From positions 62,001 through 126,000 of the forward strand of contig CADDYV010000001.1 in NCBI GenBank assembly GCA_902810695.1: a stretch of DNA of 64,000 bases, given 5' to 3'. The notes below the pieces were generated by a model, which was not told where the DNA came from, did no database searches, and saw only the letters and a program-made list of their open reading frames with translations. Source of the DNA: Actinomycetota bacterium. GTDB taxonomy: Bacteria; Actinomycetota; Rubrobacteria; Rubrobacterales; Rubrobacteraceae. A program made the position numbers and the translations under genes. Below, piece after piece: positions 35,537-37,951 of the stretch (position 1 is the first letter of the stretch; each line of letters begins with the position of its first letter).

Positions 35537-36355
35537 CTGGAAATCTTCGAAGCGGTTTTTCTCGGCGTGGTCCAGGGGCTCACGGAGTTCCTGCCCGTCT
35601 CGAGTTCGGGACACCTGCTGCTGGCGCAGTATTTCCTGGGTCTGAACGAGAGACGTTTCGGGCTCGCTTTTGATGCGGCGCTGCATCTCGGGACGGCCCT
35701 CGCCGTTCTGTTGTTTTTCTGGCGGGATATCCTGCGGCTGGCTAGAGCGTTTTTGAGGTCGTTGCGGCGGGGGCCAGACTTTCTGGATCTCGATGAGCGC
35801 ATGGCCTACATGCTCATCGTCGCGTCCATCCCGGCGGTGATCATCGGGGGGCTGTTCGAGGGGTTTTTCGCGACAGCGGTTCGCTCTCCCTGGGTCGTGG
35901 TCTTCACCCTGGTGCTGGTGGGCGCGCTGTTTCTGGTCGGCGAGGCCGTAGGGCTCAAAAGGCGCAGGGCCTCGAAGCTCTCTTTTGTGGAAGCGTTCGG
36001 GATCGGACTCGCGCAGGCGGCGTCGCTGGTTCCCGGCGTCTCGCGCTCGGGGGCGACGATAACCCTGGGGCTGTTCCTGGGACTCCGCCGTGAGGAGGCG
36101 GCGCGATTCTCCTTCCTGATGAGCTTCCCGATCACGACCGGCGCGGGGCTTCTGAGCCTGGCCCAGTCCGCAAGCGGAGGTATGGGCGCCCACCAGGTGG
36201 CGATGTTCGTCGCGGGGTGCATCTCCGCCGCTCTGGTGGGATACCTAGCGATCCGCTTTCTCCTGAACTACCTGGCCGGGCATAGCCTGCGGGTCTTCGC
36301 CTACTACCGGTTCGGGCTCGCGGCCTTCGTCGCGCTCCTCTTGCTCATCTTTTGA
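35537..36355 (+). CDS. uppP: Undecaprenyl-diphosphatase, probable non-AUG start
   Basis: About 272 residues, normal for UppP. Motifs EFLPVSSSGHL and VPGVSRSGATITLGLFLG are visible in a polytopic membrane protein. It recycles undecaprenyl pyrophosphate and gives bacitracin tolerance. The first ATG/GTG/TTG in frame is GTG 35567, in the middle of the conserved first helix. Upstream codons read ILEIFEAVFLG, as in other UppP proteins, and the frame has no AUG-like codon up to a TGA at 35507. CTG 35537 (or ATC 35534) is the likely start, with GGAGGG at 35521-35526. A one-base sequencing error is the rival explanation. Confidence 0.9.
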   Translation: MEIFEAVFLGVVQGLTEFLPVSSSGHLLLAQYFLGLNERRFGLAFDAALHLGTALAVLLFFWRDILRLARAFLRSLRRGPDFLDLDERMAYMLIVASIPAVIIGGLFEGFFATAVRSPWVVVFTLVLVGALFLVGEAVGLKRRRASKLSFVEAFGIGLAQAASLVPGVSRSGATITLGLFLGLRREEAARFSFLMSFPITTGAGLLSLAQSASGGMGAHQVAMFVAGCISAALVGYLAIRFLLNYLAGHSLRVFAYYRFGLAAFVALLLLIF

Positions 36356-36390
36356 CACGCTACAAGAAGTTTTGGTAACTTATGTCAATC

Positions 36391-36465
36391 ATGCGTGCCG
36401 GAATGATATCAGGCTTCCAAAAGCAGCGCCGCGGTTTCCGCCTGCCGGCCCTACGATTTAGCTAG
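36391..36465 (+). CDS. Putative pheA leader peptide (24 codons, three Phe)
   Basis: Short frame from ATG 36391 to TAG 36463, with Phe codons at 9, 16 and 23. It precedes a hairpin/terminator and the pheA gene. The Phe codons are spaced, not clustered as in classic enteric leaders. Its start lies 5-10 nt from TATGTC/TAACTT-like words, so it may be leaderless. Treated as a candidate only. Confidence 0.35.
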   Translation: MRAGMISGFQKQRRGFRLPALRFS

Positions 36466-36508
36466 GAGGAGCGCGACCGCGCCACGGCGGCTGCGCTTCT
36501 CCCGTTTT
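36466..36508 (+). terminator. Attenuator terminator upstream of pheA
   Basis: GAGGAGCGC (36466-36474) pairs with GCGCTTCTC (36493-36501) in nine base pairs including one G-U, and an inner CCGC/GCGG continues the stem. The 3' side is followed by CCGTTTT. CGCGGT (36430-36435), within the leader frame, can pair with ACCGCG (36476-36481) and would disrupt the terminator. Confidence 0.55.
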
Positions 36509-36604
36509 AAGTTCTCACCGTACAACCTTCCTGGAGGTACATCGAAGTCGTGTTCGCCTTGAAGTTCAGAATATGCATAGCAGTAACCGTCGAGGAGCGC
36601 GGGC

Positions 36605-37714
36605 GTGTTTGCCAGGGATAGGCAGGAGGCGCCCGAAGAGATGGGTGTGCTCCGGCAGAAGATAGACACGGTGGATGCGGAGATCGTGCGCCTGCTCGAC
36701 GAGCGGGCGCGGTTTGCGCGCAGGATCGGGGAGATCAAACGCGAGAAAGGGCTCGACGCCTACGCCCCGGCGAGAGAGCGGCTGGTGCTGGACCGGGTGA
36801 TGTCTCTGAGCGAGGGGGAGTTCCCCAGATCGGGGCTCGAAGCCGTTTTCCGGGAGATCATCTCCTGCTCGATATCGCTCGAAGCCAGGTTGAAGGTCGC
36901 CTATCTCGGACCGGAGACTACCTTCACCCACGAGGCGGCTCGCAGGTCTTTCGGGACCAGCGTGGAGATGGCGCCGCGTGCGACGGTAGCGGAGGTCTTT
37001 ACGAATGTGGAGCGCGGTGAGGCTCAGTACGGGGTAGTTCCCGTCGAGAACTCTATGGAGGGAGCCGTAGCCCATACCCTGGACGAGCTGATGAACAGCC
37101 CGCTGAAGATCTGCGGCGAAATCTACCTGCCCGTCTCGCAGAACCTGCTCTCGAAGGAGGAGTCTCTGGGCAGCGTCTCGCGCGTCTTTTCCCACCCGAT
37201 GGCGCTCTCTCAGGTTTCTTCCTGGCTCCGCCGCGAGCTTCCTCGCGCGAGGGTGGAGGAGGTGGAGTCTACGGGAGAGGCGGCGCGCAAGGCTGCCAGA
37301 GAAGCTGGGGTCGCCGCCGTCGGGAGCGAGCTCGCCGCCGAGGTTTACGGCCTGAACGTCCTGGCGCGCAACATCCAGGACGCCAGGGCCAACGCCACCC
37401 GGTTCATCGTGCTCGGAAAATCCTGGTCGGAGCCTACCGGCAGGGACAAGACGAGCGTGGTCTTCTCGGTCAAGGACCGTCCGGGAGTCTTGAGGGACGC
37501 GCTCGCTTCGTTCGCCGAGGAGGGTATCAACCTGACCCGCATCGAGAGCCGCCCGAGCCGCAAGCGGGCCTGGACATACGTTTTCTTCGCGGACTTCCAG
37601 GGGCACCCACAAGAGGAGAGGGTGAAGCGAGCATTGATGGCCCTCGAAGAACACTGCCCGTATGTCAGCGTGATCGGGGCCTACCCCGAAGTCTCCGCCG
37701 AGGTGTTCGGGTAA
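36605..37714 (+). CDS. pheA: Bifunctional chorismate mutase/prephenate dehydratase (P-protein)
   Basis: 369 residues. Chorismate mutase (about 13-85): VLRQKIDTVDAEIVRLLDER and GEIKREKG. Prephenate dehydratase (about 97-280): VAYLGPETTFTHEAARRSFG, VPVENSMEGAVAHTLDEL and the TRFIVLG region. Then an ACT domain (about 285-365) with the phenylalanine-binding ESRP motif in NLTRIESRPSRKRAW. It makes phenylpyruvate from chorismate in phenylalanine synthesis and is probably feedback-inhibited by Phe through the ACT domain. GTG 36605 has GAGGAG upstream. A probable attenuator lies before it. Confidence 0.95.
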   Translation: MFARDRQEAPEEMGVLRQKIDTVDAEIVRLLDERARFARRIGEIKREKGLDAYAPARERLVLDRVMSLSEGEFPRSGLEAVFREIISCSISLEARLKVAYLGPETTFTHEAARRSFGTSVEMAPRATVAEVFTNVERGEAQYGVVPVENSMEGAVAHTLDELMNSPLKICGEIYLPVSQNLLSKEESLGSVSRVFSHPMALSQVSSWLRRELPRARVEEVESTGEAARKAAREAGVAAVGSELAAEVYGLNVLARNIQDARANATRFIVLGKSWSEPTGRDKTSVVFSVKDRPGVLRDALASFAEEGINLTRIESRPSRKRAWTYVFFADFQGHPQEERVKRALMALEEHCPYVSVIGAYPEVSAEVFG

Positions 37715-37723
37715 GGAACGGCT

Positions 37724-37951
37724 CTGGACTTCAAGAGCGCCGCGAGGGAAGTTTTGAGAGAGGTCGGACACCCCCTGCACTACACGGATATAACCGAGCT
37801 TGCGCTGGAGGCCGGATACCTTGAGAGCGCCGGGAGAACCCCGCACAACACCATGCGCGCGCGGCTCTCGGTGGACGTGAGGGATAACCCCGATACACCT
37901 TTCGCTCAGACGGCCCCCGGCGTCTACGGCCTCAAAGGTATGCGAGGGTAA
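37724..37951 (+). CDS. HARE-HTH domain protein, probable CTG start
   Basis: About 75 residues forming a single HARE-HTH (HB1/ASXL-type) winged helix: LDFKSAAREVLREVGHPLHY, ITELALEAGYLESAGRTP and TPFAQTAPGVYGL. From TTG 37754 the first helix would be lost; CTG 37724 restores it and has AAGGAA (37713-37718) 5 nt upstream. No ATG/GTG/TTG occurs between the preceding stop and the helix. HARE-HTH domains join chromatin or restriction factors in larger proteins; a free-standing one is unusual. It follows pheA at 9 bp. Confidence 0.72.
   Translation: MDFKSAAREVLREVGHPLHYTDITELALEAGYLESAGRTPHNTMRARLSVDVRDNPDTPFAQTAPGVYGLKGMRG

Follow-up and report, generated by a model that had tools for sequence, protein, structure and literature searches.

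Comparative evidence for a proposed phenylalanine-sensing leader with a single conserved Phe codon before pheA in the Rubrobacteraceae

Organization of the uppP-pheA region

The window, that is the whole stretch of 64,000 nucleotides analysed here, comes from a member of the Rubrobacteraceae, the named relatives of which include Rubrobacter taiwanensis. In it, uppP (35567-36355; Pfam BacA) is separated from pheA by 249 nt. The features recognized in and around this gap are as follows:

36352-36381, + strand: promoter, with a -35 box TTGACA (36352-36357), an 18-nt spacer, a TGG extension and a -10 box TAACTT (36376-36381); overlaps the uppP stop codon
36391-36465, + strand: uORF1, near-leaderless ORF of 24 codons for the leader peptide MRAGMISGFQKQRRGFRLPALRFS, three of them Phe, and its stop codon
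36454-36460, + strand: CGATTTA, made up of the rare Arg codon CGA, the Phe codon TTT (36457-36459) and an A; the proposed single hungry codon, present in 37 of 37 leaders
36465-36502, + strand: hairpin with lower stem GGAGGAGCGCG/UGCGCUUCUCC, 11 + 4 pairs, -29 kcal/mol
36505-36508, + strand: TTTT, two bases (CG) beyond the stem; from its sequence a possible terminator tail
36533-36538, + strand: GGAGGT, Shine-Dalgarno-like sequence (SD) of uORF2; in most relatives an SD is found 25-42 nt past the hairpin
36550-36621, + strand: uORF2, read from the sequence as 23 codons from a GTG, with two Phe codons near its start; overlaps the start of pheA
36592-36597, + strand: GAGGAG, SD of pheA by sequence; GAGGAGCGCG is a repeat of the hairpin 5' arm
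36605-37714, + strand: pheA, GTG start, fused chorismate mutase II / prephenate dehydratase / ACT domain (Pfam CM_2, PDT, ACT)

The ORF of 24 codons, three of them for Phe, at 36391-36465, which the original prediction placed in a phenylalanine attenuator, is present in the sequence as described. The promoter overlapping the uppP stop codon, uORF2 (36550-36621) and the invariant CGATTTA are additional to that prediction. Directly 3' of pheA, and in the same frame, is a CDS for a HARE-HTH protein (Pfam PF05066; 37715-37951) in which an ATG, GTG or TTG start is absent; a CTG at 37724 is at the position of the GTG in relative L012, and it may be this CTG that is used as the start.

The promoter and the leader ORF

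Leaders of pheA were collected from Rubrobacteraceae genomes, giving 37 sequences that represent 13 genera but which, being related, are not independent of one another. Many of the relatives are draft metagenome assemblies, and all of the evidence is comparative and computational. In three leaders (L015, L016, and L008) the promoter was mis-assigned by the script and these sequences were read by eye.

Both promoter hexamers in this genome are the exact family consensus, and in almost all relatives the end of uppP carries TTGACA-like and TAACTT- or GTACTT-like hexamers with 16-18 nt between them. The first ATG is about 10 nt past the second hexamer in nearly all of them. If transcription is taken to start some 7 nt past the -10 box, which predicts a start at about 36388 in this genome, the 5' end of the RNA would be 2-5 nt before the start codon, and uORF1 would therefore be near-leaderless.

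An in-frame start upstream of CGA-TTT is present in 36 of the 37 leaders, mostly 24 to 72 nt from the CGA and in leader L070 as a GTG; the exception is L061, which has no in-frame start close to the promoter. By chance an in-frame start would be expected in one third of cases, and with each genus counted once the probability of the observed agreement is about 6e-7, a value that is approximate since the genera are related. The position of the uORF1 stop codon, on the other hand, ranges from +9 to +99 among the relatives, which suggests that it is the stall position, rather than the stop, that is under selection. In about ten relatives the stop is at +51 or more, such that uORF1 reaches into the 3' arm of the hairpin or passes beyond the hairpin altogether.

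The invariant CGATTTA

The sequence CGA-TTT-A occurs in a single copy per genome and is in frame in a short ORF in 36 of the 37 leaders. In the window, TTT makes up 22% of Phe codons and CGA 6.6% of Arg codons, and both are fixed in the leaders. A codon for Phe, the amino acid that the pathway produces, is at the control point in every case (TTT, 37/37, before pheA). Only TTT at 36457-36459 is kept; the other two Phe codons of uORF1 in the window are not conserved, and in 23 of the 37 leaders TTT is the sole Phe codon, so that the run or cluster of regulatory codons that is typical of such leaders is not encountered. Of the three Phe codons pointed out in the original prediction, two are thus outside the conserved design, and the sensor appears to be one invariant CGA-UUU and not a set of spaced Phe codons. 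The caution in that prediction, that control could be different from that of the enteric leaders, was borne out. A programmed frameshift at CGAUUUA into pheA was considered and ruled out, as the frame of pheA relative to CGATTT varies among the relatives.

The conserved hairpin

The first pair of the hairpin is at nucleotide 12 from the CGA, which is nucleotide 9 from the TTT, in 36 of the 37 leaders. For an alignment of the stems guided by the predicted fold, the arms were excised and then placed side by side; among the 21 distinct stems, standard pairs fill 93% of the cells, compared with 60-71% when the partner is slid, and changes on both sides are seen in 7 of the 9 stem pairs. On the evidence of this covariation the hairpin is real. 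The whole leader of 260 nt folds no better than shuffled sequences (z = 0.38), and the case for the structure therefore rests on comparison.

With a covariance model of the element together with the hairpin, nearly every genome of the family has one strong match, the one at pheA; six genomes representing other families in the phylum had no match as strong as this. Likewise, 26 of 40 genomes contain the pattern CGATTTANNNRGGAGG, which combines the motif with GGAGG, nearly always in one copy located at pheA, and the reversed control gave 0 matches. Other genes were considered as carriers of the element; the weaker matches that were inspected proved to be at a gene-end hairpin or inside unrelated coding sequences, which is to say due to chance. 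A gene-by-gene search of the genomes examined found no leaders of the pheA kind before trpE, pheS, hisG, or the DAHP synthase gene. In a search of Rfam with the leader, no family, Phe_leader included, reached the gathering score, the only match being a meaningless one to MIR9776 (E 3.5).

Three further occurrences of similar sequence were seen. In one metagenome-assembled genome the leader motif occurs a second time, at the end of a contig (L064; G006:C496, 257-272, - strand), and this copy is probably a stray fragment from another species. Genomes of Candidatus Poribacteria (L071, L074-L076, L085-L088, and others) carry many copies of ATCCCGATTTATCGGGGAGGAGCG without pheA alongside, apparently an unrelated dispersed repeat. 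A promoter-like TTGACA-18-TACATT with ATCCACGATTTAGGAAGGAGG precedes another gene (L065, G001:C6 around 58022; also G022:C129) and seems to resemble the motif by chance; it has no hairpin.

Does the hairpin act as a terminator?

According to the original prediction, the hairpin was a nine-pair terminator at 36466-36501, followed by a T-tract and opposed by an antiterminator pairing of CGCGGT (36430-36435) with ACCGCG (36476-36481). There is indeed a strong, covarying hairpin here, though it is bigger than was claimed, and the stable stem is followed by TTTT in this genome, which makes intrinsic termination plausible here but not in most relatives. At least four T in the first 8 nt after the hairpin are present in only 3 of the 37 leaders. 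The other 34 have no T-tract, although the window does contain clear, ordinary terminators with a U-tract at other places, and this is evidence against an intrinsic terminator of the simple type. No second hairpin was seen between the stem and the SD of pheA. The two halves of the antiterminator exist in the sequence, but such 6-nt matches occur in 10 of the 37 relatives as against 8.8 by shuffling, which is the level of chance. A classical transcription attenuator, with a terminator at 36465-36502 and T4 and a separate antiterminator, is therefore very unlikely. The conservation in relatives that was suggested as a check on the prediction is found in all 13 genera for the ORF, its frame, the Phe codon and the hairpin, but not for the antiterminator or the T-tract.

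The stretch between the hairpin and the SD is rich in C and poor in G (36% C and 20% G over 1313 nt summed over the relatives), as would suit Rho-dependent premature termination modulated by translation of the leader, and Rho-dependent control has been suggested for mycobacterial cys leaders (PMC1262725). The stretch is, however, short (25-67 nt) and its sequence is not conserved, and its composition may do no more than keep the SD unstructured. Termination by Rho is considered unlikely.

Possible control of translation

In about half of the relatives, read by eye, there is an out-of-frame ORF like uORF2 that overlaps and ends at the start of pheA; in the remaining relatives the same SD serves pheA directly, with pheA carrying an N-terminal extension. 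This second short ORF (about 20-24 codons) is behind the first SD and ends inside the pheA start, the sequence there often being CATGTTCGCTGA (leaders L002, L004, L006, L010, L018, L021, L026-L030, L060, L067, and L070). The overlap makes translational coupling to pheA possible.

It might be proposed that it is translation that is attenuated, with the 3' arm of the hairpin (CUUCUCC) having two alternative partners, the 5' arm and the SD of uORF2 or pheA. When Phe is plentiful, ribosomes crossing the 5' arm would release the 3' arm, which could then mask the SD; when it is scarce, a ribosome stalled at UUU would halt short of an intact hairpin and the SD would be open, with uORF2 coupling initiation to pheA. 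The 5' arms are polypurine and SD-like in nearly all leaders, which is consistent with this, as are the general lack of a T-tract, the usual position of the SD 25-42 nt past the hairpin and the SD-masking T-boxes predicted for Actinobacteria (PMC1262725). Blocking the 5' arm in computation, with the SDs of the relatives assigned by eye, lowered mean SD openness from 0.36 to 0.26 and raised pairing of the 3' arm with the SD from 0.01 to 0.30; in energetic terms such pairing is possible in many leaders. However, SD openness drops by as much for a ribosome that stalls at UUU and whose footprint extends to +14, which is the wrong sign; a permutation test showed no co-evolution, pairing of each 3' arm being no stronger for its own SD than for the SDs of other species (p = 0.84); and the first SD of this genome is unaffected (0.48 in both states). 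Attenuation at the level of translation is considered rather unlikely, less so than Rho-dependent termination.

A parallel before ilvB

In the same genomes there is a leader ORF before ilvB, ending ...L-R-L-I-T-R-A-G-R..., and 17 of 18 such leaders have an in-frame ATT, a codon for Ile that is rare here. In about half of these a GC-rich stem starts at nucleotide 8 from the ATT, with weak outer pairs from nucleotide 5-6 in most of the others, and the stop codon of the ORF is at the end of the stem. The distance from the hungry codon to the main stem is equal within about 1 nt in the pheA and ilvB leaders, and in both the base that follows the codon is A. This shared geometry around an Ile codon is independent support for UUU as the sensor before pheA.

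The codons before the GC-rich stem of the ilvB leader are CTA/CGA/CTA/ATT (L137 from this genome, G000:C29; L130-L147). Reading by eye shows a second, terminator-like hairpin after the stem (GGAGC...GCTCC GTTCTT in L137) and an alternative pairing of UCCGCC with GGCGGA. The ilvB leader is, from its sequence, a candidate for a full attenuator.

The conservation of CGAUUUA as nucleotides goes beyond that of the amino acids, extending to the A after the Phe codon, and could reflect another role. CGAUUUA and the hairpin might then be a binding site for a protein or an RNA, the ORF being a by-product. Against this, the frame is maintained across leaders of many lengths, the ilvB leaders have the same geometry with an Ile codon that matches their own pathway, and no Rfam family is matched; a binding site is judged improbable, more so than Rho-dependent termination.

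A model for the sensing of phenylalanine

It seems likely from the comparison that pheA is controlled by a ribosome-mediated leader that senses phenylalanyl-tRNA and relies on one hungry codon positioned in front of a hairpin, and the sensing of Phe is in itself well supported. In this model, RNA would be started from the promoter at the end of uppP, with its 5' end a few nucleotides before the start codon of uORF1, and ribosomes would translate uORF1 in frame into CGA-UUU, with the conserved GC-rich hairpin starting 5 nt past the UUU codon; these steps are supported by the comparison. UUU is read by wobble by tRNA-Phe, and the ribosome covers mRNA to about +12 to +15 from the P-site codon, so that it would reach the base of the pheA stem when UUU is in the A site. 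When charged tRNA-Phe is scarce, the ribosome would pause here, CGA occupying its P site and UUU its A site, and its front edge would sit on the base of the hairpin or abut it. One codon may be sensitive enough if it is a wobble-read UUU after a slow CGA, and the CGA may sharpen the response; CGA was a slow codon in an in vivo assay with the Salmonella his leader (PMC4046918). When Phe is plentiful, the ribosome would proceed and leave, and the complete hairpin would form.

The least certain part of the model is its read-out, for which it is tentatively suggested that the complete hairpin is an off-switch favouring premature termination of transcription, and that a ribosome on its base prevents this, such that pheA is made under Phe limitation. 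This is the simplest model of the right sign, that is, on at low Phe, and since the waiting ribosome would itself prevent completion of the hairpin, a separate antiterminator would be unnecessary. Against the model stand the missing T-tract in most relatives, the one leader (L061) that has no in-frame start near the promoter, and the conservation of CGAUUUA beyond what the amino acids require. Moreover, one Phe codon makes a weaker signal than the codon runs of classical leaders, and where uORF1 continues into or past the hairpin, translating ribosomes would disturb the hairpin when Phe is plentiful as well.

As far as sequence comparison can tell, the leader has the testable defining features of a ribosome-mediated amino-acid leader, except that one codon takes the place of a cluster, and it does not have the tested features of a classical terminator/antiterminator attenuator. 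Leader-peptide control of pheA, the core of the original prediction, is strongly supported by comparison, but the classical version of it is not.

Relationship to known leaders

The enteric pheL leader has a Phe-rich run with a terminator and an antiterminator. In E. coli it is likewise a leader peptide before pheA that mediates control by charged tRNA-Phe (PMC11802643). The Rubrobacteraceae leader differs from it in having one conserved Phe codon, a near-leaderless ORF and no conserved U-tract or antiterminator. In another actinobacterium, the AroR leader of Corynebacterium glutamicum aroF is a working Phe-responsive leader peptide (PMC11802643). It is likewise ribosome-mediated, but it has a Phe-Tyr-Phe cluster, controls DAHP synthase, has another sequence and is from another bacterial class.

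The mycobacterial polycysteine leaderless sORFs, which are amino-acid-responsive attenuators (Canestrari 2020, cited in PMC9094748), share the leaderless short ORF and differ in their runs of Cys codons; a fixed-distance hairpin does not form part of the available description. For cys leaders a conserved terminator was not reported (PMC1262725). Actinobacterial ilvB leaders likewise have a short ORF, with codons for branched-chain amino acids overlapping a hairpin (PMC1262725; M. tuberculosis ilvB1, PMC13236596), and a three-hairpin model has been put forward for that of C. glutamicum (PMC11857589). They differ from the pheA leader in having several regulatory codons and a terminator with poly-U, and the ilvB leader of the Rubrobacteraceae is a link between the two leader types. 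T-box riboswitches sense uncharged tRNA and can mask the SD in Actinobacteria (PMC1262725), whereas the pheA leader has no Rfam match and a conserved ORF that is presumably translated.

A survey of Actinobacteria in 2005 described structures for Trp, Cys, and Leu (ilvB/leuA) metabolism only, together with T-boxes at ileS, and conserved structures for other amino-acid pathways were not reported (PMC1262725). No description of the pheA element was found in the open-licence literature searched.

There may thus be, although this is put forward with some hesitation, a minimal type of attenuator in the Rubrobacteraceae, consisting of one wobble-read hungry codon, the A that follows it and, at a constant distance of 4-5 nt from the codon, a GC-rich hairpin, with the stalled ribosome as the switch and with neither an antiterminator nor a run of codons; the codon would be UUU behind the slow CGA before pheA and AUU before ilvB. 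Attenuation is a textbook mechanism, known chiefly from runs of regulatory codons and pairs of terminator and antiterminator, and the comparison over 13 genera isolates what evolution retains of it here, namely one codon, the reading frame, and a hairpin at a set distance. If the model is true, one codon suffices for an amino-acid sensor, and the leader would provide a simple, portable sensor of Phe and a way to test the influence of the choice among synonymous codons on sensitivity. It would also extend control of amino-acid synthesis at the RNA level in Actinobacteria to that of phenylalanine.
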